Of a DNA stretch of 64,000 nucleotides, positions 45,901 through 63,119 are shown one piece after another (the stretch's first letter is position 1; the number at the start of each line of letters is the position of its first letter). The notes beneath the pieces were generated by a model. It saw only the letters and a list, made by a program, of their open reading frames with translations. It did no database searches and was not told the origin of the DNA. Location: NCBI RefSeq assembly GCF_017872555.1, contig NZ_JAEDOX010000014.1, forward strand, positions 1-64,000, read 5' to 3'. Made by a program: the position numbers and the translations under genes. The DNA comes from Ruegeria sp. HKCCSA071. Its GTDB lineage: Bacteria > Pseudomonadota > Alphaproteobacteria > Rhodobacterales > Rhodobacteraceae.

Positions 45901-46596
45901 TTAAGTCCGAGAGGCTTCAAACGCCGCCCATGCTTTTTCGAAGGCGTCGAAATCGAACCCTGCTGCGCGGGCGGGATTCAGAACCAATTTTTCGGTTTCA
46001 AGCAACCTGATGATCGCCTGTTCAAGATTGCCCACGACTTCAGGCGGGATCACCAGCGCGCCATGCCGGTCCGCGTGCACGAGATCGCCATCCTTGATTA
46101 CAAGGCCGAAGACTGTCACCGGTGTGCCAATCTCTTTTACGTGCACAAATCCGTGGCTTGGCCCGACAGACCCGGCAACCACCGGGAATCCATCCGGCAG
46201 GTCGCCGAGGTCCCTCATCACGCCGTTGGTCAGCGCACCATTTATGCCAAAACCTTTGTGGACCGTCGTATTGATCTCGCCCCAATAGGCGCCGATGCAA
46301 TCAGGATAATCCAAATCCTCAACCACGGTGACAGCCGGGCCGCTCCCAGTTGCCATATGCCTGTAATAGTCCATCCGACGTTGTCGGATCTCCTCAGGCG
46401 GTTCTGACGGCGGGTTCACGGCGGCAATCTTCGCGGTACGGGCATACCCCACCATCGCTCCCGCATCGGGATCAGAGCATAACATCGTGCCCCGGGTGAA
46501 TTCATTGAATCCGCGTTTGCCCTGCGCCACTTCGATTGCGTTACAAACAGTCGGAGTGTCGACCTTTTTCAGCAGGTCCAGAAGGGATTGGTTCAT
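45901..46596 (-). CDS. RraA-like / HMG-CHA aldolase-type protein
   Basis: This is a 231-residue member of the RraA family, which includes class II pyruvate aldolases (4-hydroxy-4-methyl-2-oxoglutarate / 4-carboxy-4-hydroxy-2-oxoadipate) and catalytically silent RNase E regulators. Seen: MNQSLLDLLKKVDTPTVCNA, GYARTAKIAAVNPPSEPPEE, NGALTNGVMRDLGDLPDGFP, and VHADRHGALVIPPEVV, close to the aldolase metal region (GxxxDxxR/D pattern in RDLGDLPD). Last gene of the long catabolic run on the minus strand, overlapping the hydrolase by ATGA, so a catabolic lyase role is more likely than RNA regulation (inference). Confidence 0.8.
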   Translation of the reverse strand: MNQSLLDLLKKVDTPTVCNAIEVAQGKRGFNEFTRGTMLCSDPDAGAMVGYARTAKIAAVNPPSEPPEEIRQRRMDYYRHMATGSGPAVTVVEDLDYPDCIGAYWGEINTTVHKGFGINGALTNGVMRDLGDLPDGFPVVAGSVGPSHGFVHVKEIGTPVTVFGLVIKDGDLVHADRHGALVIPPEVVGNLEQAIIRLLETEKLVLNPARAAGFDFDAFEKAWAAFEASRT

Positions 46597-47288
46597 ATCA
46601 TCTCCAGCCAGCGGGTCAGGGCCGCCGTTGTTTGTTGCGGTTGTTCCAATGTCGGCAGGTGGCCGGCGTTTTCTATGATTTCCAATCGGCTCTGTGGCAT
46701 CAGATCGTGCATCAACTCATGCCTTGAGACGGGGCACAGGGCGTCGTCGCGCCCACAGAGAATGAGTGCTGCGCCGGTGAAGTTGCGCAGAGTGTTGCTC
46801 TGGTCAGGGCGATCACGCAGAGCTTTGGATTGATTGACGAAAACGTCCGGCCCAAGATCCATGGCCATGTCCATGCACAAATCTAGAATGGCGGCGCGAC
46901 GCGGACCGTCCGCCAGGTAGTTCGGTTTCATCTCTTCGGCCATGACTTTGCGCAGGTTGCCACGTCCGACCGCATCGATCTGAGGGCCGCGCCTGGCTTT
47001 GACCTCGTCCAGTTCAGCAAGTGGGTTCGTGTCCATCAACGCCAGACCAGCCACACGGTCCGGGGTCTGCCGCAGAATTTCCATCGCCACGATACCGCCC
47101 ATCGAGAGTCCCACCAGAGCAAAGCGTTCGGGCGCATAGGCCAAAACATCGGCGGCCAGCGCCTGCATCGTTTCATGGCCTCCGATTGGTGCGCACAGGA
47201 TCGGGTACTTGCCTGACAAAGCATCGATCTGCGGAGTGAACAACCGCGCATCGCACATCATGCCGGGCAGGAGGATAAGCGGCGTCAT
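46593..47288 (-). CDS. alpha/beta hydrolase
   Basis: This is a 231-residue hydrolase. The nucleophile elbow is VGLSMGGIVAMEILR; the acid lies in ILCGRDDALCPVSRH, and the histidine in ENAGHLPTLEQPQQT. The start at 47288 (MTPLILLPGMMCDARLF) overlaps the MetE-like stop (ATGA); the longer frame to 47384 lies inside that gene. Short lid region, no signal peptide. The ester or lactone substrate is unknown; it belongs to the same run as the RraA-like and MetE-like genes. Confidence 0.87.
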   Translation of the reverse strand: MTPLILLPGMMCDARLFTPQIDALSGKYPILCAPIGGHETMQALAADVLAYAPERFALVGLSMGGIVAMEILRQTPDRVAGLALMDTNPLAELDEVKARRGPQIDAVGRGNLRKVMAEEMKPNYLADGPRRAAILDLCMDMAMDLGPDVFVNQSKALRDRPDQSNTLRNFTGAALILCGRDDALCPVSRHELMHDLMPQSRLEIIENAGHLPTLEQPQQTTAALTRWLEMI

Positions 47289-48409
47289 TTGACCAGGGCA
47301 GCCCCTTCGGCAAGCGCGCCCAACTTGGCATAGGCGATATCCGGATCTACTGCACCAAAGCCGGCAAAGGTGCCAAAGCCGCAATCTGATCCGGCGATTA
47401 CACGCTCATTTCCAACGATGTTCGTAAACCGCTCGGTACGCTGAGCAATCAGTTCGGGGTGTTCGACAAAATTCGTCGTGGTGTCCACCACACCGGGCAC
47501 AAGAACCTTGTCATCCGGAATTTCCCCCTTGCGGTCACGGAACACCGTCCATTCATGCGCGTGTCGCGGGTTAGAGGTTTCAAAAAGCACGAAGCGCGAT
47601 TTGGTCGACATCAGCGTCGAAAACACCTTGTCCATGCCGATGTCGCAGCAATGTGGCCCCTCGTAATTGCCCCAGCAAATATGGACACGCACTTTGTCAG
47701 CCGGGACATTTTGCAATGCGTGGTTCAATGCCTCAACATGCATGTTGGCGATTTTCACGAACTCGTCGTCGGACAGATCGGTGAACAGCATATGGCGCGA
47801 CAGGGCCAGATCCGGGCAATCCAGCTGCAAATCCAGACCCGCACCAACGATGGTTTCATATTCTTCCTTCATCGCGTCGGCCAGCGCGGCCAGATAGGCC
47901 TCGCGCGTCGGATAGAAGTCATTCTGCAGAAACAGAGAAATCACCCCAGGGCTAGCTGCGTTCATAAAACCGCGCCCGACCCCGTGTTCGACCATGGCAG
48001 CCTTGAGGTTGTCGATGTCCTTCTGCAGCTCACCTTGCCCTTTTGAGCGCACCTCGCCAACGCACATGGGTCGCGCATATTGGGGCGTGCCGCCATCATC
48101 TGCCAGACGTTTCAGAAAACCGGGAAACATCTTGAGGTCTGCGGGCGCATTGCGCGGGCTGTCACCCGCAAAGCCGGTATAGCGGTCCTTGACGTAAGTG
48201 GCGTAAGAGATCTTTGAGGTCTCACCGTCCGAGACGATATCTACCCCAGCCTTGACTTGTTTCCGCACGGTCTCGGACACGGCCGCTGTCATGCAGGCGT
48301 CAAATGCAGCCTGATCGAACGGTTCCTCTCGCTCGCGAGCAAAGATGAAGTCAACGACCTCCTGATTTCGTGGCAGACTTCCCACATGGGTGGTTGAAAC
48401 GCGGGTCAT
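47285..48409 (-). CDS. MetE C-terminal-like zinc methyltransferase/lyase-family protein
   Basis: This is a 374-residue protein related to the C-terminal barrel of cobalamin-independent methionine synthase (UROD/MetE-like). It opens MTRVSTTHVGSLPRNQEVVD; possible zinc ligands are in VRVHICWGNYEG (His, Cys) and IAGSDCGFGTFAGFG (Cys). It is half the length of MetE and lacks the folate-binding N-terminal half, like epoxyalkane:coenzyme M transferase and other thiol-alkylating relatives. The start at 48409 is the usual family start. The substrate is unknown; a thiol or methyl-transfer step is suggested. Confidence 0.82.
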   Translation of the reverse strand: MTRVSTTHVGSLPRNQEVVDFIFAREREEPFDQAAFDACMTAAVSETVRKQVKAGVDIVSDGETSKISYATYVKDRYTGFAGDSPRNAPADLKMFPGFLKRLADDGGTPQYARPMCVGEVRSKGQGELQKDIDNLKAAMVEHGVGRGFMNAASPGVISLFLQNDFYPTREAYLAALADAMKEEYETIVGAGLDLQLDCPDLALSRHMLFTDLSDDEFVKIANMHVEALNHALQNVPADKVRVHICWGNYEGPHCCDIGMDKVFSTLMSTKSRFVLFETSNPRHAHEWTVFRDRKGEIPDDKVLVPGVVDTTTNFVEHPELIAQRTERFTNIVGNERVIAGSDCGFGTFAGFGAVDPDIAYAKLGALAEGAALVK

Positions 48410-48434
48410 GTTAGAATCTCCATTCAAATCTAGG

Positions 48435-48465
48435 TCCATCGCCGGGCCGGAAAGCCGGCGATGGA
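48435..48465. terminator. perfect stem-loop between cupin and MetE-like genes
   Basis: Arms 48435-48445 and 48455-48465 are perfectly complementary over 11 bp (TCCATCGCCGG) with a 9-base loop. No U-run follows on the minus strand, so it is better read as an RNA processing or stability hairpin that separates the cupin and MetE-like messages. Confidence 0.6.
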
Positions 48466-48511
48466 TGTGCTGCGCGCGCCCCGATTGAAGCCGAGACGTG
48501 TAATATCGGCG

Positions 48512-49474
48512 TTATGCTCCTGTCCAAGTGGCCCCAGCAGGGTCGTCGGTTGCGGTGATCCGGTACAGACCCGCTTGCCCGGTCATAGACGGTTCAGCGC
48601 TGTAGCTTTCACCGGGCAGAACCAGAGCGGTATCGCCGTTGGACAGGGTAACCTCGACCTCATTGATCTTGATGCGCCAATGGCCGCTCGCCGGCATCAG
48701 AACAACGGGTTTGTCCGCCTTAGCCTGTTCAGCCACGGCCGAACCGCGCGTCATAAAATCAACCTCGAAACCGGGCTTGTCTTTGATCAGGCCATTTTCA
48801 CCGATCACAACCGCAGGTTTGTCCGCTGCCAGCGCCATCAGGTCCCAGTAGCGAGCGACGTATTTGCCGATCACTGCATCAACGGGAACCTCGGGGAAGG
48901 CTTTCAGTTCTTCCTCGGTCAGTAGCGGCATCGGCTGCACATTGTGTGGCAGTTCCTCGCCCTTTTTGCTATCGTACAAGACGCCGTTATTGCCCAACAT
49001 CAGGCCATGGGCCTGCGCATCCTGAATGACTTGCGGAGCCCAGGTCACGCCGCCACCGGCATCGTCGCCACCCAGCATCGACATGATCATGCCATAGTCC
49101 TGGCCGACATTCTCGAAGCCGCGGAAGATCCCGGTCGGGATGTTGAAGATGTCGCCTTCTTCAGCGATGAACTCACCTGCCGTGCCATAACGACCCCAGA
49201 AGAACCGCCATCGACCTTTAGCAACAAAGAACACCTCGGCGGTGGTGTGGCTGTGCAGCGAGTTGCGGCATTTCGGCGGTTGCCCCGCTGCGCCGATGTT
49301 GAACCCGATCTTGTCGGTGATGTGGACGTGTTGATCCGGGCTTTCGCTGACCCCACCGCCAATGATTGTAAAGTTCTCCTTCTGGTCCGAGCCCGGCGTG
49401 TGCGCGTCGATGAACGCGGTTTTACAAGGCTTCAGTTCGCCATAACGGACGATGCGGCTTTCGATGGTACTCAT
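48512..49474 (-). CDS. two-domain cupin protein
   Basis: This is a 320-residue bicupin. The N-terminal cupin has RNSLHSHTTAEVFFVAKGRW, with His/His/Glu metal ligands, and EEGDIFNIPTGIFRGFENVG; the C-terminal cupin (VVLMPASGHWRIKINEVEV, GDTALVLPGESYSAEP) has lost obvious metal ligands. Family members include dioxygenases and isomerases, and some merely bind. It lies between the fifth NTF2-like gene and the MetE-like gene, with a palindrome just upstream of its start. No firm function. Confidence 0.82.
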   Translation of the reverse strand: MSTIESRIVRYGELKPCKTAFIDAHTPGSDQKENFTIIGGGVSESPDQHVHITDKIGFNIGAAGQPPKCRNSLHSHTTAEVFFVAKGRWRFFWGRYGTAGEFIAEEGDIFNIPTGIFRGFENVGQDYGMIMSMLGGDDAGGGVTWAPQVIQDAQAHGLMLGNNGVLYDSKKGEELPHNVQPMPLLTEEELKAFPEVPVDAVIGKYVARYWDLMALAADKPAVVIGENGLIKDKPGFEVDFMTRGSAVAEQAKADKPVVLMPASGHWRIKINEVEVTLSNGDTALVLPGESYSAEPSMTGQAGLYRITATDDPAGATWTGA

Positions 49475-49495
49475 ATCTTTTCTCCTTTTGATTTG

Positions 49496-49514
49496 GGTTT
49501 GATCGGATCAAACC
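49496..49514. promoter_or_regulatory. 19-bp palindrome GGTTTGATC-G-GATCAAACC upstream of the cupin gene
   Basis: Nine-bp arms around a single central base lie 22 bp before the cupin start codon. The one-base centre is too tight to form an RNA hairpin, so a protein-binding site is more likely. It suggests a separate promoter for the cupin gene within the run. The binding regulator is unknown; the local LacI protein is one candidate, although this differs from the sites at 61.1 kb. Confidence 0.5.
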
Positions 49515-49625: not shown

Positions 49626-50609
49626 CTAGAGATCGCCGGTTTTCAGCAGAATCTGTTTCCAGATCGAGGTTTCGTCAAACAAGGTGTATTCCTTGCGCAG
49701 TCCCCATGGACCGAACTCGGCCTGGCTGATGCCCAGCACAAAGACCTCGGCCCCTGTGGGCACGCCGAACACGCCCCAGCCGTCATGCGTGCCATGCAAA
49801 GACCAGCGGATCGCGGCGCGCGGCGGCATCATCGGGTCGTCACGGCCGATCTGGTGGTGGACCTTGAATTCGGCACGTGGGAACGCCGCACGCAGGCCCA
49901 TCCAGAACCGATCAACCGGCCCCCAACTGTGGCCGGTCTTGCCGCCGGGATATTCTGACAGAACAGCCCGGTCGTATTCAGCCTCGATCACCCTCATATC
50001 GGCATTCATGATCCGGGTCAGGATATCCGCGTATTTTTGGCCCCATTCATTGTCATTGCCACGGCCTTTATATGGGCCGGGCTGATCGTTCGCGAGCGTG
50101 AAAGGTTGCACGCAGGCTTCTGGCCCACCTTCGCGCGCGATCAGATCGCGGGCGTATTCCTTGGGGTCCCAACCCATCTGCTGCACGATCGCGCTCTGGT
50201 CGCGGATGAGCCACTCATCGTTGATCTGGTTGTTGATGGCGTGGCAGTCGGCCAGAATGCGGTAGACAAGCTTCTTGCCGGTCGCCTTGCCATACACACC
50301 GTCACCCAGATGGGTCGCTGTGGACAAAAGGCGATGCGACGACAGCATGCCCTCTTCCGGCGTTCCCGACCAGATTACATCCTCACCCAACAGCGTTCGA
50401 TCAGGGAATTCTGCCAGAGTTGCCATAGTGGCAGCAATGACATTCTGGTTTCCGACAACCACCGACCCAGGTGAACGTACGACGATGTCCGTGGCATAAT
50501 AGTCGTGCAGTGTGGCAATGCCACGATCTTCCCAGATTTCCTTGGTAATCCCGATTATGTAGTCGGGGAAATCTTTGAACTTGGGATCAAATCCCTTCAT
50601 GTCTTCCAT
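49626..50609 (-). CDS. SnoaL/NTF2-like protein (divergent member)
   Basis: This is a 327-residue protein made of two NTF2-fold halves. The first has GIATLHDYYATDIVVRSPG and VWSGTPEEG-like features of SnoaL-type polyketide cyclases/isomerases; the second has FWMGLRAAFPRAEFKVHHQ and WSLHGTHDGWGVFGVPTGAEV. It lacks the PTGK...GKIxExW block shared by the other four members, so it is a more distant relative. It overlaps the 3' end of the LacI gene by 13 bp. Function unknown; the fold suggests an isomerase, cyclase or dehydratase. Confidence 0.78.
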   Translation of the reverse strand: MEDMKGFDPKFKDFPDYIIGITKEIWEDRGIATLHDYYATDIVVRSPGSVVVGNQNVIAATMATLAEFPDRTLLGEDVIWSGTPEEGMLSSHRLLSTATHLGDGVYGKATGKKLVYRILADCHAINNQINDEWLIRDQSAIVQQMGWDPKEYARDLIAREGGPEACVQPFTLANDQPGPYKGRGNDNEWGQKYADILTRIMNADMRVIEAEYDRAVLSEYPGGKTGHSWGPVDRFWMGLRAAFPRAEFKVHHQIGRDDPMMPPRAAIRWSLHGTHDGWGVFGVPTGAEVFVLGISQAEFGPWGLRKEYTLFDETSIWKQILLKTGDL

Positions 50610-51616
50610 CCTTCAGGTATGCGGGCGGAGCCGCGTACAATTAGCGGTCCGTCAATCTCGACCCGACGCGGGCCGGCATCGGGGTCCTCGATCTTGCCGA
50701 GCAGAATATCGACAGTTTCGGTGACCATGCGATTGGCGGGCTGTCGGATGGTGGTCAGGTTGTAGGCTGGCCATGAGGCGACAGTGACATCGTCATACCC
50801 GATGACCGAAACGTCGCCCGGAACATTCAGCCCCAATTCGAACCGCAGCGTGTCCATCACGGAAACGGCCATGTGATCGTTGGCGACAAACACCGCATCA
50901 GGCGGATCGGCTTCGAACATCCGCAGCGTGGCTTGCCGGGCTTCTTTCGTCGAAAAGTTTCCTACTTCGCGGGCGTGCAGCGTAACCCCGGCTTTCTGCA
51001 AGGTCGCAACAAACCCTGTTTCGCGGTCACGCTGGGTCGAAGCTCCTTCCCACCCGGCGATATATCCGATCTTTTGGTGCCCAGCTGCCAACAGGAACTC
51101 GGCGGCTTTTCGACCACCGGCAACGTTGTCAGATGTAACTGACGACATCGCCGTGTCGTCTTGTGCCCGATTGAACAATACCATCGGTATACCGGCCGTT
51201 CGGCAGCGGTCTGACAAATCTGAGGACAAAGCCACCGAAGCGGCGATGATCCCTTCGACCTGAAAGTCGAGTATTTCCTCGACCACATTGTCGATGTTTC
51301 CAGATTCATGCGAGGCCATGAATATCAGCACGTGGTATCCACGTTCCTGTAACGTGTTTGTCAGCTTCTCCAGCGCCTCGGGATAGAACTGGTTGTTCAG
51401 ATAGGCCACGACAAGCCCAATGATCCGGCTTTTCCCGGACACTACAGCGCGGGCCAGTACGTTCGGGCGATATCCCAGTTCCTTGGCCGCTTTGCGCACC
51501 TTCTCAACAGTTTTTTTTGACGCAGACGCGCCGGGGGTGAACACACGGCTGACCGCAGATTGGCTGACCCCGGCGAGACGGGCAACTTCCAGTGATGTAA
51601 CTTTTTGTGTCGCCAT
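50597..51616 (-). CDS. LacI-family transcriptional repressor
   Basis: This is a 339-residue regulator. The N-terminal HTH reads VTSLEVARLAGVSQSAVSRV, followed by the hinge region ELGYRPNVLARAVVSGKSR and a periplasmic-binding-protein-like effector domain (IIGLVVAYLNNQFYPEALEK; VSVIGYDDVTVASWPAYNLT). It starts in a TGATG overlap with the SDR gene, so it is made with the enzymes it likely controls. LacI-type operator sequences in the 61.1-kb divergent promoter are its best candidate targets. The effector is presumably the imported sugar-like compound or an intermediate. Confidence 0.92.
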   Translation of the reverse strand: MATQKVTSLEVARLAGVSQSAVSRVFTPGASASKKTVEKVRKAAKELGYRPNVLARAVVSGKSRIIGLVVAYLNNQFYPEALEKLTNTLQERGYHVLIFMASHESGNIDNVVEEILDFQVEGIIAASVALSSDLSDRCRTAGIPMVLFNRAQDDTAMSSVTSDNVAGGRKAAEFLLAAGHQKIGYIAGWEGASTQRDRETGFVATLQKAGVTLHAREVGNFSTKEARQATLRMFEADPPDAVFVANDHMAVSVMDTLRFELGLNVPGDVSVIGYDDVTVASWPAYNLTTIRQPANRMVTETVDILLGKIEDPDAGPRRVEIDGPLIVRGSARIPEGWKT

Positions 51617-52383
51617 CAGTCTGCCGTCCAACCTCCGTCAACCATCAATGCCGTGCCCGTCACCAGCGACGATGCATCCGAGGCCAGATAAACCACCGCC
51701 CCCATGATGTCTTCAACCTCTCCGGGGCGACCCAGTTTAATCTTGTCCAGAATCCAGGCCCGCTTGTCCGGGTCGTCGAAAGTCGATTTTGTCAGATCCG
51801 TCAGAATGAAGGTGGGGCAAATCGTGTTAACCCGGATCTTTGACGGTCCGAACTCAAGCGCCATCGCCTTGGTGAAGCCTTCGACCGCGAATTTCGACGC
51901 ACAATAAACCGCGCGTTCGCGACCACCAACATGGCCCATCTGGCTAGAGATATTGATCAGCGAACCGGGGCGGCCAGCGTCGAGAAGGCCTTTGGCAACA
52001 GCCTGGGTCAGGAAATAAGCACCTTTGACATTGACGCCTATCACCGCATCGAAATCTTCCGGCTGTGTTTCCACGGCCTTGCTGTGTCGGGCAAGCCCGG
52101 CTGAGTTCAGCAGAATATCGAACGGCCCATTTTGCGCCACGGCTTCAGCGGTTGCCGCCACGTCCGAAACATCCAGTTCCAGAACTCTGGCAGACCATCC
52201 CTGCGCCGACATATCTTTTACAATATCCTGAAGCGCACCAGCACGGCGCGCCGCCAAAGTGACCTCAGCACCATGTTCCGCCAGCGCCACAGCGCAGGCC
52301 ATGCCTATGCCCGACGAGGCTCCGGCGACCAAAGCTCGCTTGCCGCTCAGGTCGAAACTGGGGGTGCTGGGAAAATGCGGCAT
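51616..52383 (-). CDS. short-chain dehydrogenase/reductase
   Basis: This is a 255-residue classical SDR. Cofactor motif GASSGIG is in RALVAGASSGIGMACAVAL, NSAG is present, and the catalytic Ser/Tyr/Lys are in INISSQMGHVGGRERAVYCASK. Start at 52383 (MPHFPSTPSFDLSGKRALV); the frame extends to 52461 but that part is inside the neighbouring NTF2-like gene. It is preceded by one base of spacing and overlaps the LacI start. It resembles gluconate/sorbitol-type dehydrogenases, so a hydroxyl-to-keto step on a polyol or sugar acid is plausible. Confidence 0.9.
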   Translation of the reverse strand: MPHFPSTPSFDLSGKRALVAGASSGIGMACAVALAEHGAEVTLAARRAGALQDIVKDMSAQGWSARVLELDVSDVAATAEAVAQNGPFDILLNSAGLARHSKAVETQPEDFDAVIGVNVKGAYFLTQAVAKGLLDAGRPGSLINISSQMGHVGGRERAVYCASKFAVEGFTKAMALEFGPSKIRVNTICPTFILTDLTKSTFDDPDKRAWILDKIKLGRPGEVEDIMGAVVYLASDASSLVTGTALMVDGGWTAD

Positions 52384-52384: not shown

Positions 52385-53434
52385 TCAGACCTCGCCGACC
52401 GGGAATGGGATGGTGCCCGGTACACGTGCCTTATTGAACTCACGCAGTCGGGCAAAAACATCTACGCCCAATTGCCGATACACATCCAGCAAATCGACCA
52501 ACACCCAATTCTCGCGGATCAGCCCACCTTCCAGACGCCAGAAATCAAGTGACTTCAAAGTGATCCGTTTGCCCGAAGGCGCAATCCCCATCCAGCCGTC
52601 ATGGGTGACGGTCTGGATCATGTTCGGCCAGCCGGTCACAGCGGCGTAGTCCCCATCACCAAAAAAGTGAAAGGTGATCTCGTCGGCATACAGACCACGA
52701 TCGGGCATTCCGTTGAGGAAGGGAATCTGGTGCCAGTTGCGGAATCCCGCGATACCGCGCGCTGTCCCGATCCCTGCGGGGCCGTACCAGTTCATGCGCG
52801 GATGCCAGAACCGCTCCATCTCCATCACTTCGGGCCCACCCTGGCTGGGGTGTTTCTCAAGATGTTTCAGCATGTCGACGATATGATTGCACGAGGCCAG
52901 AGACTTCACCTCATCCCACGGTCCGGACACAACGCCATCCAGAGTCGCCGGGCCGGGAATGCAGAACTCCAGCCCCAGAGACGGGGCCATTGGCCAGGCA
53001 TTCGCCTGCATCATGACTTCGGGAACGTCCCAGAGTGTCTGGATCTCGACAACCTTGCCATTTTCGAAGCGGTAGAATTCGTGGAACCGCATGTGGGTCA
53101 GATGCCCGGTCGGCGGGATGTCCAGCCAGGGGGCGACGAAGGTGCCGAAGTAGTGGCCGCCGCAGCCAACCCAATCGTTGCCCTGTTCTGTCCGACCACC
53201 CATGACGATCCAGTCGCGACGCTCAAGATCGGGCATGGATTTCAGAAGTGGCGCATAACAGATGTCATAGAGTTCCTGCGGGCAGGTCAGATCTCCGAAT
53301 GGATACAACATGTGGAGGGCGGCATCGGGCGCGATCACCGCCTCCAGCGCCGCTCGTACCTCAGCTTCGTCGAATTTATACATGGCCTCGCGCAGGGGCG
53401 CGATCAGGGCCTTGTGGGTAGAGTGAGTATCCAT
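52385..53434 (-). CDS. two-domain SnoaL/NTF2-like (ester cyclase-like) protein
   Basis: This is a 349-residue protein with two tandem NTF2-fold domains, each ending in the subfamily block: IPPTGHLTHMRFHEFYRFEN then GKVVEIQTLWD in the first, and GIAPSGKRITLKSLDFWRLE, with ENWVLVDLLDVYRQLGVDV, in the second. WYGPAGIGTARGIAGFRNWH opens the second domain. Similar to proteins annotated as nuclear transport factor 2 / ester cyclase; no measured function is known to me. Start at 53434 preferred, with GAGA upstream; 53449 is an alternative. Shares its architecture with two other proteins of this locus. Confidence 0.82.
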   Translation of the reverse strand: MDTHSTHKALIAPLREAMYKFDEAEVRAALEAVIAPDAALHMLYPFGDLTCPQELYDICYAPLLKSMPDLERRDWIVMGGRTEQGNDWVGCGGHYFGTFVAPWLDIPPTGHLTHMRFHEFYRFENGKVVEIQTLWDVPEVMMQANAWPMAPSLGLEFCIPGPATLDGVVSGPWDEVKSLASCNHIVDMLKHLEKHPSQGGPEVMEMERFWHPRMNWYGPAGIGTARGIAGFRNWHQIPFLNGMPDRGLYADEITFHFFGDGDYAAVTGWPNMIQTVTHDGWMGIAPSGKRITLKSLDFWRLEGGLIRENWVLVDLLDVYRQLGVDVFARLREFNKARVPGTIPFPVGEV

Positions 53435-53517
53435 TGCGAAATCTCGCATTATTTTAACTTCTTATCCAAAAAATTCTGTAGGGCCCCGGTCGAATCCCTG
53501 TGCAAGATTCGTCACGC

Positions 53518-56740: not shown

Positions 56741-57622
56741 TCAGCCTTTCACCGCCCCTGCAGTCAGGCCGCCGACGATCTGGCGCTGGAAGAACATCAC
56801 CAGGATGAACAGTGGAACAGTGGCAGAAACCACGGCTGCAACAGCGAACATCACGTTGCCCTCGGTTTGCGTTGTACCGAGAAACGCGGCAATGGCAGGC
56901 ACCATAGTACGGTTGCTTTCAGACAGCAGCATCGCCCCCACGGCAAAGTCGTTATAGGCCAGAAGGAAGGAGAACAGCCCGGTCGTGATGACGCCTGGCC
57001 ACATCACCGGAATGATCACACGTCGGAAAGCCTGAAACTGGTTGCATCCGTCGACCTTGGCACTTTCATCCAACTCGCTCGGGATGTTCTTGAAGAAGGA
57101 ATGCAGCATCCAAAGAGTGAAAGGCTGGTTGATCGCCACGAGCACGATAATGGTGGTTGGAAGAATTCCCCAAACATTCCATTCAAAGAAGGGTAACAGA
57201 TAACCTGAGACCAGAGTGATTGGCGGCATTGCACGGAAAATCAACGCCGTGATCAAAAGCCAGAATGTGTAGTTGTAAGTAGACCGCGAAAGGGCATAGC
57301 CCCCTAACGTCCCGATAGTCAGTGAGATGGTAACAACAAAGAAACAGACGATCCCGGTGTTCAGAACATTGCGCCAGAACTCTTCCTGAATCCATGCGCC
57401 CTCATATCCGGTGGTGGTGAACGGCGAGCCATAAACCGCTTCGGTTCGGGCACCGGTCAGGGCGTTGGTCCAGTCAGCGATCGAGAAGAAATCCAGCTCG
57501 ACCTTGAACGACCCCCAAACCGTCCAGAGGAACGGAAAGGCGGCCAGGATAAACCATAGGAGCACAAACAGGGATGAGGCGATCCGAAGGCTTGTAGGCA
57601 TTCTTTGCGCGCGGCTGGCCAT
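56741..57622 (-). CDS. carbohydrate-type ABC transporter permease (MalG-like)
   Basis: This is a 293-residue inner-membrane permease. The start at 57622 (MASRAQRMPTSLRIAS) follows AAGGAGCAAGATAAT. Six hydrophobic segments, with FRAMPPITLVSGYLLPFF, and the coupling loop ELDESAKVDGCNQFQAFRRV, then IPVMWPGV, are typical of MalG/sugar permeases. C-terminal VMFFQRQIVGGLTAGAVKG is the family ending. One base from the MalF-like gene stop. Confidence 0.94.
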   Translation of the reverse strand: MASRAQRMPTSLRIASSLFVLLWFILAAFPFLWTVWGSFKVELDFFSIADWTNALTGARTEAVYGSPFTTTGYEGAWIQEEFWRNVLNTGIVCFFVVTISLTIGTLGGYALSRSTYNYTFWLLITALIFRAMPPITLVSGYLLPFFEWNVWGILPTTIIVLVAINQPFTLWMLHSFFKNIPSELDESAKVDGCNQFQAFRRVIIPVMWPGVITTGLFSFLLAYNDFAVGAMLLSESNRTMVPAIAAFLGTTQTEGNVMFAVAAVVSATVPLFILVMFFQRQIVGGLTAGAVKG

Positions 57623-57623
57623 A

Positions 57624-58652
57624 TTATCTTGCTCCTTTGAAATCGCGCCAGGTGCGGACAAGCACAGGCGACAGAAGAATTGCGACCCCGAAAATCGTCA
57701 TCACCGAGGTAGCAGCAGCGGAAGACAGTTGCCGAGTCTCGCCACCGAGATCGTAGAAGATGAAGGTGCTGAGTGATTGCGCATGCGCTTGTGCACTGAA
57801 GCCGATGATAGGTTCAAACACCTTGAAATTGTCCATCAACTGGATCAGTGCAACAAATGTGACCAGGGGCATGAGATGGGGAACAACCACGAATTTGACC
57901 TGCTGCCAGCGCGTCGCCCCGTCTATCTGGGCGGCCTCAATCTGGTCTTGGGGCAAGGTTTGCAGGCCAGCATAGAACACGACAAAGGCAAAAGGCGCAG
58001 CGTGCCAAACACCATAGACCATCAGCGCTACCCACATCAGCCCTGTTGATGCTTTCAGGCTGAAATCCGGATCTCCAGCAAGATATACGAGGGCGTTGCC
58101 GATCACCCCGCGACTGTCAATCATCCAAAACAGGATGAGCGAGCCGATCAGCGGGGTCACGATCATGGGCAGAAGAGAGAAAAAGATCATCAGACCTTTG
58201 AGTTGCCTGTGCAGGGAGTTTACCGCCAGCGCAATCACCAGCCCCAATACAATTGTGAGCGGTGTCACGACAGCAACGAAGGTCAGCGTGAATGCCATCG
58301 CCCGGTAGAAGGGCAGATTACCAAGCTCGGTGAAGAAGCCGCCCCATGTTTCATTCGCGGCCCAGATTTGACCAATTTCCTGTATCGCCAGATGGCCTCG
58401 GTTAAAGTAAATGTCCAGTCCCACAAACCGGCCCAGAGGTTTCTCGGCGCGAAGCGCCGCGGTGGCCTCTTGATCAACAGTGGTCTCAGTTGTGCATCCG
58501 ATAAGCGGGGTACAGTTTTCGACCTCTAACAGAACGGCCGGGTGGGGCGCGAAGATCGATTGAGTCACCACCGAGACAATTGGCATTGCAATGAACAGCA
58601 GCATCGCGAGTCCTGTGGGCAGGAAGAACCAAAGGAATGTCTTATGGCGCAT
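57624..58652 (-). CDS. carbohydrate-type ABC transporter permease (MalF-like)
   Basis: This is a 342-residue permease. First helix WFFLPTGLAMLLFIAMPIVS; a sizeable periplasmic loop with two cysteines (EVENCTPLIGCTTETTVDQE) follows and could form a disulfide; the coupling loop is LPQDQIEAAQIDGATRWQQV. It pairs with the MalG-like subunit. Genes lie after the binding protein and its stem-loop. Confidence 0.93.
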   Translation of the reverse strand: MRHKTFLWFFLPTGLAMLLFIAMPIVSVVTQSIFAPHPAVLLEVENCTPLIGCTTETTVDQEATAALRAEKPLGRFVGLDIYFNRGHLAIQEIGQIWAANETWGGFFTELGNLPFYRAMAFTLTFVAVVTPLTIVLGLVIALAVNSLHRQLKGLMIFFSLLPMIVTPLIGSLILFWMIDSRGVIGNALVYLAGDPDFSLKASTGLMWVALMVYGVWHAAPFAFVVFYAGLQTLPQDQIEAAQIDGATRWQQVKFVVVPHLMPLVTFVALIQLMDNFKVFEPIIGFSAQAHAQSLSTFIFYDLGGETRQLSSAAATSVMTIFGVAILLSPVLVRTWRDFKGAR

Positions 58653-58710: not shown

Positions 58711-58717
58711 AGGCTTC

Positions 58718-59944
58718 TTATTGCAGATAGCCTTGCTCGATGGCGGCGGCACGATAGGCGGCTTCTACATCAGCCAACGCTTGTTCCGCGCTTTCCTTGC
58801 CCTGCATGAAATCAGCAAGTTCGTTGCCAAGTGCGCTGTGCATGAGCCCCATGTACGGCAACATCGGATACGGTGGCGTGCCCATTTTGGCCGCAGCAAA
58901 CACGCCCTCGGCATCTTTTCCCGGCTGGTAGCCTTCAATCAGCCAGACCGCCAACGGCGTGGTTTCATCGTTCAGCATGTCAGGACGGATGCCATGTTTC
59001 ATTGCAATGAATGTGGCCTCGGCCTCTTCATCTGAGATGTTCTTTCCGACAGTCCAACCGTCCCACCACAGGGTCGTTGCAGGGATATCTCCGCCACCAA
59101 CTGTCAGCGGCGCGCCAATCGCATGGCCGTCTATTACCTCCTGCAACACACCTTCGGTGGTGGTTTGCTGCGATGCGCGCGAACCCCACATATTCATGAT
59201 TGCAACGTTGCCAGCACGGTATTCGGCATTGGTGGCGTTGGAGTCATGAGTCAGGAAGTCGGGATTCATGTATTCCGACAAAGCCTTCATCATATTCAGG
59301 GCGTTGACACCGGCCTCAGAATTCACGTTGGGTTCGGCCGTACCGGGTTTAAAATGGCTGCCGCCATAACCAAGGAACATATTGTTGAATTCCTGCGCCA
59401 GGTTCCAACCCGATGCATAGGCTCCACCAACCGGGTTTTGCATAATACCCTGCGCACGAATGGCCTCGGCCACCTCGAGCATTTCCTCATAGGTAGTCGG
59501 GACTTCCACACCGGCTTGCTCAAGGATGTCCTTGCGGTACATCAGATGCTGCGCGTTCGCCATGAAGGCGATAGCCATGATGTTGTCGCCAATCTTGATC
59601 AGCTGCCCAGGCTGCAGGTCCTGACCATACTTTTCCACCAGATCATTGAGCGGACGAATAACGTCTTCGTTCATCAGTGCCACAACCGAACTATTGGCGA
59701 TGATTGCGGTCGTGTATTCCGACGGATTGCCCGACAGGCCAGCCACGTTGATGGTCTGGTGCTCGGATGTCAGGTTGGATTCTACCGACGCCCCGGTGCA
59801 TTCCTTCGCTCCGGCTGCGACGGCCTGGATGGCCGCAAATTCATTGCCGACTATGTTGACACGTGCGCCGATTTCGCAGGCATATCCCGCGCTTGCGGCA
59901 AAGGCGGCTACCGAGCCGGCCAATGCAATTTTCTTCAGAAACAT
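58718..59944 (-). CDS. extracellular solute-binding protein, carbohydrate type (SBP_bac_1)
   Basis: This is a 408-residue periplasmic protein. ATG at 59944 with GGAGGAATATTG upstream; a TTG one codon earlier is less likely. A signal peptide MFLKKIALAGSVAAFAASAG ends near YACEIG; a cysteine just after the presumed cleavage site could pair internally. The mature part shows sugar-binder features (FMANAQHLMYRKDILEQAGV, PTTYEEMLEVAEAIRAQGI, TLWWDGWTVGKNISDEEAEA). Ligand unknown, possibly a sugar, polyol or glycoside-like compound used by the enzymes of the run. Confidence 0.9.
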   Translation of the reverse strand: MFLKKIALAGSVAAFAASAGYACEIGARVNIVGNEFAAIQAVAAGAKECTGASVESNLTSEHQTINVAGLSGNPSEYTTAIIANSSVVALMNEDVIRPLNDLVEKYGQDLQPGQLIKIGDNIMAIAFMANAQHLMYRKDILEQAGVEVPTTYEEMLEVAEAIRAQGIMQNPVGGAYASGWNLAQEFNNMFLGYGGSHFKPGTAEPNVNSEAGVNALNMMKALSEYMNPDFLTHDSNATNAEYRAGNVAIMNMWGSRASQQTTTEGVLQEVIDGHAIGAPLTVGGGDIPATTLWWDGWTVGKNISDEEAEATFIAMKHGIRPDMLNDETTPLAVWLIEGYQPGKDAEGVFAAAKMGTPPYPMLPYMGLMHSALGNELADFMQGKESAEQALADVEAAYRAAAIEQGYLQ

Positions 59945-59966
59945 CAATATTCCTCCCTAGATGGAT

Positions 59967-59989
59967 GGTGCATCTTCGAAGTCTGCACC
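59967..59989. repeat. inverted repeat GGTGCA-N11-TGCACC upstream of the binding-protein gene
   Basis: Perfect 6-bp arms, with a TTCGAA palindrome inside the 11-bp spacer, lie in the 82-bp gap between the ATPase stop and the binding-protein start. Could be an intercistronic hairpin or an internal operator. Weak evidence. Confidence 0.35.
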
Positions 59990-60026
59990 CAGATTACCCC
60001 GTCCCAACGGGTGTTGTTTGCGGTTC

Positions 60027-61076
60027 TCAGCCTTCCAGGCGAGCCCCGGTTTTCGCATCAAACAGATGGCAGTGATCAGTATGGATATGAATCGAGACCT
60101 GATCGTCGATTTCGGCCCGATAGGTTTTGTCGGCCTTGACCGAGACCAGCGCACCACCGATCCGAACCGAAACCATGGTGCTGTCGCCCAACAGCTCTTG
60201 CGTATAGATCGGCGCGTTGATCTCGCCGCCACATTCCACAACATTTGCGTCCTCGGCGCGAAACCCCAGCGTGATAGGACCGTCCGGCGCGTTCAACCCG
60301 TGCACCTCTGTGCTTTGGGCGCGGAACACGCCACCCTGAACCTCGCCATCGACAAGGTTCATTGCCGGGTTGCCGATGAAGCTGGCCACAAATGTATTTG
60401 CAGGTTCATCGTAAATATCGGTTGGGGAGCCAACCTGCTGAACCACACCTTGTTTCATGATCACCACCCGATCAGCCAAGGTCATTGCCTCGATCTGGTC
60501 GTGGGTCACATAGATCGTGGTGACCGCCAATTCGTGGCTCAGGTTCTTGATCTGCGCGCGGGTGGAAACGCGCAGTTTTGCGTCAAGGTTGGATAGTGGC
60601 TCGTCCATCAGGAACACGTTCGGCTCGCGCACAATGGCACGAGCCAGGGCAACCCTCTGACGCTGACCGCCAGACAGTTCCGCCGGTTTGCGGTGCAGGA
60701 AGTCATCCAGCTCGACCATCGCCGAAGCGCGCCGCACTTTTTCGTCATGGGTAGCAGGGTCAATACCGCGAACTTTCAGCGGGAAGCGAATGTTCTCATA
60801 TACATTCATATTCGGATAGAGCGCGTATGACTGGAACACCATCGCGACATCGCGGTCTTTGGGCTCCATGTCATTTACTCGCGCGCCATCGATCAGGATA
60901 TCCCCCTCAGACGCGTCCTCGAGACCAGCAATCATGCGCATTGTCGTGGTCTTTCCGCAACCTGACGGCCCAAGAAGCACCAGAAATTCCTTGTCGGCTA
61001 TTGTCAGGTCAAAATTGTCAACTCCAACAAACGATCCCCAACGCTTTCCAACATTGCGAAGTTGAATTTCGGCCAT
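60027..61076 (-). CDS. sugar-type ABC transporter ATPase (UgpC/MsmK-like)
   Basis: This is a 349-residue ATPase. Walker A LLGPSGCGKTTTMRMIAGLE, Q-loop MVFQSYALYPNMNVYENI, signature [15 protein letters not shown], Walker B FLMDEPLSNLD, and switch His in YVTHDQIEAM are intact; C-terminal TOBE-like domain from TLGFRAEDANVV. The start at 61076 (MAEIQLRNVGKRWG) has GGGAGGACAGA before it; upstream frame to 61160 crosses the operator region. First gene of the minus-strand importer/enzyme run. Confidence 0.94.
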   Translation of the reverse strand: MAEIQLRNVGKRWGSFVGVDNFDLTIADKEFLVLLGPSGCGKTTTMRMIAGLEDASEGDILIDGARVNDMEPKDRDVAMVFQSYALYPNMNVYENIRFPLKVRGIDPATHDEKVRRASAMVELDDFLHRKPAELSGGQRQRVALARAIVREPNVFLMDEPLSNLDAKLRVSTRAQIKNLSHELAVTTIYVTHDQIEAMTLADRVVIMKQGVVQQVGSPTDIYDEPANTFVASFIGNPAMNLVDGEVQGGVFRAQSTEVHGLNAPDGPITLGFRAEDANVVECGGEINAPIYTQELLGDSTMVSVRIGGALVSVKADKTYRAEIDDQVSIHIHTDHCHLFDAKTGARLEG

Positions 61077-61090
61077 TCTGTCCTCCCTGC

Positions 61091-61115
61091 TGCACGCATC
61101 GTGCATACGCTTGCA
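61091..61115. promoter_or_regulatory. overlapping palindromes, candidate LacI-family operator
   Basis: 61091-61105 is TGCACG-CAT-CGTGCA (6-bp arms). It overlaps 61102-61115, TGCATACGCTTGCA, which has TGCA half-sites around a central CG. Located 15-39 bp upstream of the ATPase start. The TGCA-N2-CG-N2-TGCA pattern is the classic LacI-family form and recurs at 61155-61170. Confidence 0.6.
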
Positions 61116-61154
61116 AAACCATAGACAACAAAAGAAACATCTGGCAAGTTTTTT

Positions 61155-61170
61155 TTGCATGCGTGTGCAA
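61155..61170. promoter_or_regulatory. TTGCATGCGTGTGCAA, candidate LacI-family operator
   Basis: A 16-bp site with TTGCA/TGCAA arms and a central CG, 12 of 16 positions symmetric. It lies in the same 160-bp divergent promoter and 53 bp (about five helical turns) from the CATACGCTTG-centred site, a spacing suited to looping or to two RNA polymerase sites. The LacI gene at 50.6-51.6 kb is the obvious candidate binder. Confidence 0.6.
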
Positions 61171-61236
61171 ACGTCGACTTCATCTTCTTCGCAATTCGCC
61201 CCATGACAGCGACCAAAGAACTGAAAGAAAGTAATA

Positions 61237-62238
61237 ATGTCCTATGAAATCCAAAAAGCGATCATCTTGGATTACTACTCGGCGCTCAGCAGCGTAAAAG
61301 AATCGGATATCGCTAACACGTTGTCTGAGTTCTGCGCAGAAGACTACCTCTGGCGCGGTTTCCACCCGTTTGATGAGCTTCGGGGCACCCATGACGTAGC
61401 GCAGGCATTCTGGCATCCCCTGAAGCAAAGCCTAGGGAATATGCAGCGCCGGATGGACGTGTTCATGGCCGGAAAAAACGAGATGGACGGATTCACCTCG
61501 GTCTGGGTTGTTTCAATGGGGCACCTTATGGGCCTGTTCGACAATGCGTGGCTGGGCATCGCCCCTACGGGCAAGATGGCGTTTTTGCGCTATTGTGAGT
61601 TCAACAGGATCGAGAATGGCAAGATCGCCGAGACGGCGATGTATTTCGACATCCCGCATTTCATGATGCAAGTCGGGTTGCAGCCCTTCCCGCCCCAAAC
61701 CGCAGCCCACCTGGTGCAACCCGGACCGATGACGCATGACGGGTTGATGTTCAACCCGCAGCCTGCCGAAGAAGGCGAGAAAACTCTCGGCACGATCAAT
61801 GCTATGATTTCCGATCTCGGCCAATGGAACAGCGGCCTGAGCCTTGAGGAAGAATTGCGCCAGACATGGAGCGAAGACATGATCTGGTGGGGCCCTGCCG
61901 GGATCGGTGCGACCTATACGATCGAGCGCTATGCAAAGCAGCACTCAGGCCCGTTCCGCGCATCCTTCACGGACCGTTCAAAGACCAAACACATCTGCCG
62001 CATGGCTGAAGGCCACTATGGCGGCTTTTTTGGCTGGCCGAATTTCACGGCGCGACCGACCGGCGGGTTCATGGGCATGCCCGCCACCGACAAGGCCGGT
62101 GAATTCCGCGTGATCGACATCTATCGACGCGAAGGAGACAAACTGGCGGAGAACTGGATCTTCATCGATCTGCTGCATTTCTGGAAGCAACAGGGCGTCG
62201 ATATATTGGGGCGCATGGCGAAAGTACCGCGAACATGA
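61237..62238 (+). CDS. two-domain SnoaL/NTF2-like (ester cyclase-like) protein
   Basis: This is a 333-residue protein with two NTF2-fold halves. First block: IAPTGKMAFLRYCEFNRIEN with GKIAETAMYFDIPHFMMQVG; second block: MPATDKAGEFRVIDIYRREG with KLAENWIFIDLLHFWKQQGV. WWGPAGIGATYTIERYAKQH opens the second half. It is the plus-strand partner of the divergent importer operon and overlaps the amidohydrolase by ATGA. Third double-domain paralogue of the locus; catalytic role unknown. Confidence 0.83.
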   Translation: MSYEIQKAIILDYYSALSSVKESDIANTLSEFCAEDYLWRGFHPFDELRGTHDVAQAFWHPLKQSLGNMQRRMDVFMAGKNEMDGFTSVWVVSMGHLMGLFDNAWLGIAPTGKMAFLRYCEFNRIENGKIAETAMYFDIPHFMMQVGLQPFPPQTAAHLVQPGPMTHDGLMFNPQPAEEGEKTLGTINAMISDLGQWNSGLSLEEELRQTWSEDMIWWGPAGIGATYTIERYAKQHSGPFRASFTDRSKTKHICRMAEGHYGGFFGWPNFTARPTGGFMGMPATDKAGEFRVIDIYRREGDKLAENWIFIDLLHFWKQQGVDILGRMAKVPRT

Positions 62239-63119
62239 CCGGCTGGATCGACGCCCATCACCACCTTTGGGACCTTGAAGCCGTGAACTACCCCTGGCTG
62301 ATGGCGCGCGGGGTGGAAAGGTTCTTTGGCGACCCGACGCCGATTCAACGGAATTACCTGCTGCGCGAGTTCCGGTCCGAAGCCGCGCCCTGCGGAGTCG
62401 GTGCCTCGATCCATATCCAGGTGGGAGCCAAAAACGGTCTGGACGAAGCCCGGTGGGTTCAAGCTGTCGCCGATACCAATCCAGACTGGCCAATGGCGCA
62501 GGTTGTGTTCTGTGACCTGACCTCGGCTGACCTACCCGCCCAGCTTGATACGTTTCAGGCCCTTCCAACTGTACGCGGTGTGCGCCAGATCGTCGGGCGC
62601 GCACCCGGAGAGGACGCGCAGACGGGCACAAATTCTCTGCTGGATGATCCGCGATTTCTGGATGGACTGAAGGAGGCTGGACGGCGCGATCTCAGCTTTG
62701 ATCTCCAGCACATTCCCGAATTGATCGGAAAAACTACCCGAATTCTTGCGCAAGCCTCGAATACACGAGTCGCTCTATGCCATGCCGGATCACCACATGA
62801 CCGTACCCGCGCGGGCCTGAAAAGCTGGGCTCAAAGACTGCGTGCGCTGTCCGATCTGCCGCATGTCTCGTGCAAACTCTCAGGCCTGGGCATGTTCGAT
62901 CACAACTGGACGCCTGACAGCATTCGCCCGATCGTGGAGATTTGCCTTGAACAATTCGGACCCGAGAGGGTCATGTTTGGTTCGAATTTCCCGGTCGACA
63001 AGCTCTATGGCAATTATGCATCGCTGGTACAGGCTTACCGTGATTTGGTACCGGCTGAAGCACAATCGGCGGTTTTCAGAGAAACCGCCGCACACTTCTA
63101 TGATCTCGAGGTGCCCTGA
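62235..63119 (+). CDS. amidohydrolase-2 family lactonase-like protein
   Basis: This is a 294-residue TIM-barrel hydrolase of the amidohydrolase-2 family. N-terminal metal motif WIDAHHHLWDLEAVNYPWL; central SFDLQHIPELIGK (His); VALCHAGSPHDRT (His); C-terminal MFGSNFPVDKL, where the usual aspartate of GSDWP is replaced by Asn (GSNFP), as in several L-fuconolactonase and PDC-hydrolase relatives. Most likely hydrolyses a lactone. With HisD-like, SDR and NTF2-like enzymes it suggests oxidation of a sugar-like ring to a lactone and its opening (inference). An IS element begins about 14 bp downstream. Confidence 0.85.
   Translation: MTGWIDAHHHLWDLEAVNYPWLMARGVERFFGDPTPIQRNYLLREFRSEAAPCGVGASIHIQVGAKNGLDEARWVQAVADTNPDWPMAQVVFCDLTSADLPAQLDTFQALPTVRGVRQIVGRAPGEDAQTGTNSLLDDPRFLDGLKEAGRRDLSFDLQHIPELIGKTTRILAQASNTRVALCHAGSPHDRTRAGLKSWAQRLRALSDLPHVSCKLSGLGMFDHNWTPDSIRPIVEICLEQFGPERVMFGSNFPVDKLYGNYASLVQAYRDLVPAEAQSAVFRETAAHFYDLEVP

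Follow-up and report, generated by a model that had tools for sequence, protein, structure and literature searches.

The locus analyzed here, at positions 45901–63119 of a 64-kb window (the whole stretch of DNA analyzed, positions 1 to 64,000 of contig NZ_JAEDOX010000014.1) of Ruegeria sp. HKCCSA071, resembles several described systems in some of its parts. In the catabolism of the sulfonate 2,3-dihydroxypropane-1-sulfonate (DHPS), the HisD-family dehydrogenase HpsN carries a G-R-Y-A/S-H motif with the sulfonate-binding His126, the catalytic residues Glu318, His319, and Asp352, and zinc ligands, as given in the accessible part of PMC11382572. In Ruegeria pomeroyi, the regulator of the DHPS operon, HpsR, is likewise of the LacI type, according to the available part of PMC4334477. 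Furthermore, catabolic enzymes with an NTF2 fold are described in the accessible parts of PMC12997858 and, for PcfL, PMC11323797, where LdpA and PcfL are NTF2-superfamily lyases.

The Ruegeria locus consists of 17 close-packed genes, 15 of which are located on the minus strand, while the final two (61237–63119) are on the plus strand. They encode an ATP-binding cassette (ABC) importer, a LacI-family repressor, a dehydrogenase of the HisD/HpsN family (HisD1), a short-chain dehydrogenase (SDR), five NTF2/SnoaL-fold proteins, a bicupin, an alpha/beta hydrolase, a MetE-like zinc protein, an RraA-family aldolase, and an amidohydrolase. An earlier annotation made from the DNA letters alone (the sequence-only reading) had named these families and described the strand arrangement and tight packing; Pfam and NCBIfam searches and the open reading frames (ORFs) confirmed both. 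Co-regulation of the locus as one LacI-controlled catabolic unit is well supported by the predicted operators described below, and a catabolic unit with this core is very probably undescribed. The sequence-only reading had known of no pathway with this gene set, and none surfaced in the literature that we searched, nor did any catabolic pathway for mycosporines or gadusol; as most subscription papers and all preprints were outside the scope of this search, it is weak evidence of absence. More tentatively, at a probability of about 0.28, we read the locus as a substrate-induced catabolic operon with a ring-opening mechanism and a substrate from the mycosporine/gadusol class.

Predicted LacI control of the locus

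As read from the sequence, the LacI gene (50597–51631, minus strand; Pfam LacI and Peripla_BP_3) lies inside an operon that comprises one importer and a conserved core and is served by one divergent promoter, in which the operator is duplicated. A LacI-type palindrome with the consensus TTGCATACGTATGCAA occurs twice in the divergent promoter between the ABC ATPase gene malK and the NTF2 gene NTF4, at 61101–61116 (three mismatches) and, 54 bp on, at 61155–61170 (two mismatches). With the shorter of the possible malK starts, this promoter would span ~160 bp (61077–61236). Allowing up to three mismatches, these were the only sites in the 64-kb window, compared to 0.18 expected by chance, and two sites were reached in one of 100 shuffles. 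The rest of the genome contained two more sites, each with three mismatches; the reversed control gave no site. Across four genomes, six sites lay at the cluster and a single two-mismatch site elsewhere (G007), with one control match (G005) and none in the unrelated genome G040.

The operator is also conserved across related loci. Here and throughout, counts treat related genomes as independent, without correction for kinship. A site with at most three mismatches was located within 400 bp of the malK start in 84 of 88 non-duplicate loci carrying MalK and LacI (96 of 100 with duplicate loci retained), and at least two sites were present in 62 of the 88, spaced by 54 or 55 bp in 58 of these 62 pairs. 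Away from the malK promoter, the same 88 loci contained six palindrome sites, and the reversed control likewise gave six. The palindrome at the operon promoter with few sites elsewhere is what a LacI regulon presents, the operator itself being predicted from sequence. Both the single shared divergent promoter and the LacI-controlled catabolic unit proposed by the sequence-only reading are supported by this operator pair.

Distribution of the locus and its core

NTF1, one of the double-domain NTF2 proteins of the locus, was detected in 36 of 37 genomes of the genus, our own included, the one without it being G028 (89% complete). It was weakly matched in one of 24 other genomes of the class, and relatives at E ≤1e-30 were found in 118 of 295 family genomes, a figure that takes in paralogues. 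Among 36 neighborhoods from 35 other genomes of the genus, 35 keep one gene order (hydrolase, cupin, the core NTF2 protein NTFx, LacI, SDR, NTF1, HisD, and the single-domain NTF2 gene), and the remaining one is a second, partial copy in G015. Because NTF1 and the gene order are kept across the genus, the locus is not a chance grouping. Five of the 35 loci (L044–L048) have their importer genes in another arrangement, and some loci are without RraA, MetE or the amidohydrolase in the stretch fetched. By identity of the MalG-like permease (permease G) to our own, the importers fall into types of 97–99, 83, 70–73, and 56–59%, and the binding protein is typed likewise. Within the genus, the double-domain protein NTF3 tracks our own permease type (5/5 versus 0/31), a hint that the NTF2 paralogues vary with the substrate taken up. 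This link is looser outside the genus, where L095, L117, L122, and L132 have permease G at 80–88% without NTF3. In the 80 loci that were seeded with NTF1 (out of 131 relatives), NTF1-type presence is built in. The NTF1-plus-importer loci of Boseongicola and Silicimonas are flanked by genes for a RecD-like helicase, an AMP ligase, GcvT, an acyl-CoA dehydrogenase, and a 2-hydroxyacid dehydrogenase, which add no hint on the pathway.

A neighborhood survey anchored on the double-domain NTF2 proteins, which the sequence-only reading had suggested as a check, revealed a shared core in distant bacteria. Relatives of NTFx occurred in 51 plasmid records, in 24 of 289 class-level genomes, and in 23 of 398 phylum-level genomes, and NTFx-led loci were found on Pantoea, Priestia, Deinococcus, Alloyangia, Roseibium, Martelella, Novosphingobium, Sinorhizobium, Ensifer, and Octadecabacter plasmids. 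Judged by these comparisons, the conserved core is smaller than the locus and comprises a double NTF2 protein, the cupin, HisD, SDR, hydrolase, and aldolase, with NTFx as its NTF2 protein, whereas the importer, MetE, the single NTF2 protein, the extra NTF2 proteins, and the amidohydrolase are variable. Identities to the distant core proteins were 60–84% for HisD1, 32–71% for the cupin, 64–71% for RraA, 34–69% for the SDR, 29–69% for the hydrolase, and 24–75% for NTFx; Priestia and Novosphingobium have only a second type of HisD (HisD2; 40–44%). Of 120 loci examined, 90 contained both NTFx and the cupin and spanned at least 10 kb; among these 90, HisD1 was present in 84, SDR in 82, MetE in 69, the hydrolase in 61, RraA in 58, the amidohydrolase in 27, and an HpcH/HpaI aldolase in eight. 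RraA and HpcH/HpaI never occurred together, and the exchange of one pyruvate-aldolase family for another points to one type of product.

HisD2 and an amidase or CN-hydrolase were found together in eight of the 90 loci, each alone in one, and neither in 80. Since NTF1-seeded loci are biased for NTF1, the exclusivity of this amidase module and the NTF2-rich module was recounted on 35 NTFx-seeded loci, 14 of them plasmid loci hand-picked from the 51 matching records. Proteins of the NTF1/3/4 type occurred in 19 of these loci and HisD2 in ten, and both in none; MetE occurred in 18 and an amide hydrolase in ten, again never together. Seven further loci, six of which stem from another class of the phylum, contained HisD2 in four cases (two of these with an amidase), the NTF1/3/4 type in three, and both in none, and had HpcH/HpaI in six and RraA in none. 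A split of the two modules between marine and terrestrial habitats was considered and dropped, as the amidase module also occurs in Alloyangia, Roseibium, and Martelella.

The operator palindrome extends to these distant loci. In 48 further loci, which comprised plasmid records and genomes mostly seeded by NTFx, it was found 54 times with at most two mismatches, in 30 loci, while the reversed control gave no site and 25 permuted palindromes gave 0–7 sites; 18 of the 48 loci, some of them short stretches, were without it at this threshold. Of 43 placeable sites, 41 lay within 250 bp of the start of a labeled gene, zones that make up 26% of the bases in this set. The palindrome is present in Pantoea, Priestia, Deinococcus, Novosphingobium, and Sinorhizobium loci and upstream of amidase-module genes in Alloyangia and Martelella; sites with at most two mismatches at core-gene promoters are located at 6437 and 7308 in Priestia (L163), 7222 and 7352 in Deinococcus (L164), and 10745 and 10835 in Pantoea (L162). 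Both modules are thus probably under one kind of LacI switch, as far as predicted operators can tell. This argues for one pathway as support, not as proof; LacI proteins from different pathways may share operators. The core and operator shared across Alphaproteobacteria, Pantoea, Priestia, and Deinococcus, and largely retained in small genomes (L207 and L209, alphaproteobacterial genomes of 1.4 and 1.6 Mb and 94 and 96% completeness, hold large parts of the cluster), suggest that the pathway should act on a common natural compound.

Ensifer NER9 (L168) has a different set of partners, with NTFx, cupin, hydrolase, and HpcH/HpaI beside OtnK (456 bits, cut-off 350) and OtnC (240.8 bits, slightly short of the cut-off of 250). 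Neither HisD1 nor SDR was found beside the core in this locus, and the only HisD found on the plasmid bears the HpsN motif RYSH.

Two plasmids carry NTF2 sets in other surroundings, and no HisD was found on either. In Vibrio pelagius (L159, 5382–21984), an importer and four double-size NTF2 proteins are located beside sarcosine oxidase subunits and purU; the link with sarcosine oxidase, seen in this single record, was treated as chance. The archaeon Halobellus limi (L160, 12926–19319) has four double-size and one single NTF2 protein and a MetE-like gene with an importer nearby, so the NTF2 set also occurs in an archaeon.

Protein families and catalytic residues

The four NTF2 proteins that the sequence-only reading had assigned to one subfamily, with seven domains in all, correspond to NTF4 (61237–62238, plus strand), NTF3 (55533–56561, ORF listed to 56735) and NTF1 (52385–53449), each with two SnoaL stretches in Pfam, and to the single-domain protein at 54870–55400 (SnoaL, 6e-22), the last three on the minus strand. 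The distant fifth member is real as well (NTFx, 49626–50609, minus strand), but it is also a tandem double-domain protein, with Pfam SnoaL and SnoaL_2 matching one half each, and the locus total is therefore nine domains. The AlphaFold model (AF2) of NTFx consists of two repeats of one fold, with a mean predicted local distance difference test (pLDDT) score of 92.7, and resembles in Foldseek the SnoaL cyclases, IdmH and, further down, PhzA/B, which acts on aminocyclohexenone imines. The Asp of the SnoaL motif, which has a role in SnoaL-like enzymes, is present in eight of the nine domains; the exception is domain 1 of NTF3, with Gly in 5/5 sequences. By Pfam match, motif Asp and, for NTFx, fold, these are SnoaL-like NTF2 proteins of predicted activity.

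HisD1 (53518–54858, minus strand; Pfam Histidinol_dh 1.6e-131) has the DHPS-3-dehydrogenases as its nearest solved relatives, with 397 bits versus 239 for histidinol dehydrogenase. In the phylogenetic tree it forms a clade of its own (support 99/95). Copies with the RYSH motif, by which HpsN was recognized (the solved HpsN is outside the tree), form another clade (100/100), and the HpsN-motif copy encoded elsewhere in our genome is apart from HisD1. A further HisD-like copy of the genome (own_C25) forms the other main branch with four relatives (100/100), to which HisD1 does not belong; a role in histidine biosynthesis was rejected on this ground. In place of the G-R-Y-A/S-H motif HisD1 has GKFPM, with Met for the sulfonate-binding His126 in 88/88 distinct sequences, and the catalytic and zinc-binding residues E320, H321, D354, Q252, H255, and H414 are kept in all 88. 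It also retains the Lys through which HpsN contacts the sulfonate (reference residues from the accessible part of PMC11382572), and this Lys together with Met for His would suit another anion, for example a carboxylate. Motif and tree indicate that HisD1 is neither a histidinol dehydrogenase nor a DHPS dehydrogenase.

The remaining enzymes largely retain their catalytic residues. The RraA-family aldolase (45901–46596, minus strand; Pfam RraA-like 3e-15) has R-D-x2-D in 66/66 distinct orthologues, R-D-x2-E/D being the active-site motif of RraA/LigK-type aldolases; the LigK model gave 27 bits (cut-off 304). HpcH members of other loci score to the HpaI and GarL models, both below cut-offs. In the PcaD-like hydrolase (46593–47288, ORF listed to 47384, minus strand; Pfam Abhydrolase_6, NCBIfam PcaD below cut-off), Ser94 and His242 are present in 56/56. 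The MetE-like protein (47285–48439, minus strand; Pfam Meth_synt_2) contains H-x-C, Glu and Cys, the zinc ligand set of MetE, in 79/79. The SDR (51616–52383, ORF listed to 52461, minus strand; Pfam adh_short_C2 4e-59) scores to the KduD and gluconate 5-dehydrogenase models, below their cut-offs. The bicupin (48512–49474, minus strand; Pfam Cupin_2) was modeled with a pLDDT of 82, and quercetin dioxygenases and oxalate decarboxylases are nearest, at template modeling (TM) scores of ~0.5. The amidohydrolase of lactonase type (62235–63119, plus strand; Amidohydro_2 5e-31) reaches 122 bits with the L-fuconolactonase model, below the cut-off of 400.

The importer is encoded by malK (60027–61076, ORF listed to 61160; MalK/UgpC type, NCBIfam UgpC 444 bits, cut-off 432), a solute-binding protein gene (58718–59947; SBP_bac_1), and permease genes of the UgpA/MalF-like (57624–58652) and MalG-like type (56741–57622, ORF listed to 57661; both BPD_transp_1), all on the minus strand. 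Several of the listed ORFs probably begin too early, and the likelier starts of malK (61076), permease G (57622), NTF3 (56561), SDR (52383), and hydrolase (47288) were judged by eye from the translations.

Proposed pathway and its rivals

In the proposed mechanism, the importer would take up a small ring compound, which the NTF2-fold proteins would prepare by acid-base chemistry, that is hydration, elimination or C-N hydrolysis. One NTF2 paralogue per decoration would account for the large number of these proteins. The bicupin would open the ring oxidatively beside a carbonyl, the PcaD-like hydrolase would cut the resulting ester or lactone, and RraA (elsewhere HpcH/HpaI) would release pyruvate and a C4 keto acid from a 4-hydroxy-2-oxo acid. 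The keto group of the C4 acid would then be reduced by the SDR, and HisD1 would oxidize its terminal CH2OH to the carboxylate in a four-electron step, yielding a C4 dicarboxylate. The import, oxidation, and retro-aldol cleavage foreseen by the sequence-only reading are consistent with the predicted families and their retained residues. Its ring opening by the lactonase and its early oxidation fare less well: the cupin is a likelier ring opener than the amidohydrolase, which is present in 27/90 core loci, and HisD1 may act late, on the C4 fragment, rather than first. A retro-aldol cleavage to pyruvate and a C4 acid is a real possibility, if somewhat short of even odds. The exchange of RraA for HpcH/HpaI suggests that a C–C bond is cut late in this retro-aldol manner, with pyruvate formed from a 4-hydroxy-2-oxo acid. 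Replacement of HisD1 and SDR by OtnK and OtnC in Ensifer NER9 points to a C4 acid resembling 3-oxo-tetronate as the second product, and such an acid is plausible as the common product.

Pyruvate plus such a C4 acid would make up a branched C7 skeleton, as in ring-opened gadusol. On paper, ring opening of gadusol would give a methyl 2-oxo ester and then pyruvate and 3-oxo-tetronate, and 4-deoxygadusol would give pyruvate and 4-hydroxy-3-oxobutanoate, which SDR and HisD1 would convert via 3,4-dihydroxybutanoate to malate. 3,4-Dihydroxybutanoate is the carboxylate analogue of DHPS, and DHPS is the substrate of the nearest characterized relative of HisD1. The chemistry hints, without proof, at algal and fungal sunscreen compounds as food. 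We regard the C7 cyclohexenone sunscreens (mycosporines, mycosporine-like amino acids, and gadusol) as a doubtful proposal for the substrate class, and slightly lowered our estimate for it because the marine/terrestrial module split was not clean. Under this scheme, NTFx, cupin, hydrolase, aldolase, SDR, and HisD1 would each have a role, as would amidase and HisD2 in the other module. The locus would then also be the first catabolic pathway for mycosporine-type sunscreens, with two versions under the same LacI operator, an idea to which we likewise assign a low likelihood. In one version, the battery of double NTF2 proteins would strip the imino side chains of mycosporines, and in the other, HisD2 and the amidase would act on mycosporines whose side chains are amino alcohols or amides; in both, the cupin would open the C7 ring, which would then be split into pyruvate and a C4 acid.

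Several observations weigh against this reading. Oxalate decarboxylases and seed storage bicupins score about equal to dioxygenases for the cupin model, and of the residues H74, H76, E80, and R118, conserved in 84/84 cupins, Arg118 occupies the usual position of the fourth metal ligand, a His; with TM scores of ~0.5, the cupin is therefore no more than a candidate dioxygenase. The acid position of the hydrolase varies (Glu in 28, Asp in 20, and others among the 56). Neither aldolase was found in 24 and no hydrolase of the tested families in 29 of the 90 loci, some of which end at contig ends; core gene order and content vary among loci, and OtnK occurs in just one of the 90. No operator was found near malK in four of the 88 loci (L044, L045, L048, and L150). 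The substrate class is a paper fit that allows more than one order of steps and explains neither MetE nor the amidohydrolase well; since the amidase-module loci are without the MetE-like gene (0/10), the O-methyl group of mycosporines would have to leave otherwise there. The amidase module on Alloyangia, Roseibium, and Martelella plasmids is not solely terrestrial. Finally, the importer and LacI resemble sugar systems.

The last point leads to the main rival, namely that a sugar, a sugar acid or a glycoside is degraded by a non-phosphorylative route. This is a broad class without a named compound and in our view possible, though less likely than not. Here HisD1 would oxidize the terminal CH2OH of an aldonic acid, the NTF2 proteins would dehydrate, the cupin would isomerize like KduI, the hydrolase and amidohydrolase would serve as esterase or lactonase, and RraA or a GarL-like HpcH/HpaI would free pyruvate. 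Besides the MalFGK/UgpC-type importer and LacI, the sub-threshold scores of the HpcH members to HpaI and GarL and of the SDR to KduD and gluconate 5-dehydrogenase, as well as the L-fuconolactonase model as nearest to the amidohydrolase, fit such a pathway. However, no family of sugar kinases, sugar-acid dehydratases or glycoside hydrolases was among the Pfam matches of the 17 genes, a C6 acid would not yield pyruvate and a C4 acid, and up to four double NTF2 proteins as well as the amide hydrolase accompanying HisD2 (in 8/9 HisD2 loci, and 2/4 in the seven later loci) are left unexplained.

Two further explanations are very unlikely. In ascorbate or tetronate catabolism, the cupin would cleave a reductone to an oxalyl ester from which the hydrolase would free tetronate, to be used by SDR/HisD1 or OtnK/OtnC. 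The two latter genes adjoin the core in Ensifer NER9, and HisD1 would suit an acid with vicinal CHOH-CH2OH, but this scheme has no job for a pyruvate aldolase or amide hydrolases and does not need a battery of NTF2 proteins. Catabolism of aromatic or lignin-type dimers, with the NTF2 proteins as formaldehyde lyases like LdpA and PcfL, would agree with the catabolic role of these two lyases (PMC12997858 and, for PcfL, PMC11323797, both as accessible) and with core loci on Novosphingobium plasmids; against it, the importer is of the sugar type, and Pfam placed none of the 17 genes in a stilbene dioxygenase, etherase or aldehyde dehydrogenase family. An operon for DHPS or a related sulfonate with HisD1 as HpsN, as the bit scores of HisD1 and the LacI regulator HpsR of R. 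pomeroyi might suggest, was rejected as highly improbable on motif (Met in 88/88) and tree (an own clade apart from the HpsN-motif copy of the genome), and no sulfolactate lyase or tripartite ATP-independent periplasmic (TRAP) transporter family was detected among the 17 genes by Pfam.

Whichever substrate applies, the locus stands as a well-delimited catabolic unit by its predicted operator pair and wide distribution. Its HisD1 sets apart a distinct clade within the HisD family, and its tandem NTF2 proteins have a predicted catabolic role. If mycosporines or gadusol were the substrate, the locus would show bacterial recycling of widespread sunscreen compounds.

Neighboring gene clusters in the window

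Next to the locus, at 40473–45674, the window encodes a type III glutamate-ammonia ligase (652 bits, cut-off 470), glutamate-synthase-like and GATase proteins, and a regulator with helix-turn-helix and cupin domains, which together look like an N-methylglutamate set for methylated amines. A tie between these genes and the locus was rejected, as they are not conserved beside it: five probes gave no match in the 36 same-genus stretches and matched in two of 109 other loci (L118, with a glnA-like gene, and L106, where the regulator matched weakly), 29 of the 109 being only ~4 kb long and some repeating the same-genus stretches. A second catabolic cluster contains a 702-aa ORF that fuses class III CoA-transferase and flavin-reductase domains (37647–39755), a luciferase-like monooxygenase (33772–34818), an aldehyde dehydrogenase, and a RidA-type protein. 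Another uncharacterized, CoA-dependent catabolic cluster at 22811–32967, adjoining an AraC-type regulator, comprises a BKACE enzyme, an acyl-CoA dehydrogenase, a CoA ligase with an ATP-grasp domain, a 3-hydroxyacyl-CoA dehydrogenase, and a further ABC importer.

Relation to described enzymes and operons

With the DHPS (hps) operons, the locus shares a LacI-type regulator in Ruegeria, a four-electron alcohol dehydrogenase of the HisD family, an SDR, and an importer. It differs from them by the Met for the sulfonate-binding His and the separate clade of HisD1, by an ABC instead of a TRAP importer, and by its NTF2, cupin, and aldolase genes, which do not appear in the hps gene lists in the accessible parts of PMC11382572 and PMC4334477. 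The LdpA and PcfL lyases of lignin-dimer catabolism are, as far as the available texts describe them, likewise NTF2-fold enzymes in a catabolic role, but their partner enzymes differ, and their likeness to NTFx is at the level of the fold superfamily. The 3-oxo-tetronate branch of OtnK and OtnC adjoins the same set of NTFx, cupin, hydrolase, and HpcH/HpaI genes in Ensifer NER9, the one such locus seen; Ruegeria has HisD1 and SDR instead. SnoaL, IdmH, and PhzA/B differ from NTFx as single-domain proteins, no double-domain protein being among the 50 best Foldseek matches, and resemble the locus proteins in the fold, as seen for NTFx, and in the SnoaL-type Asp of eight of the nine domains.

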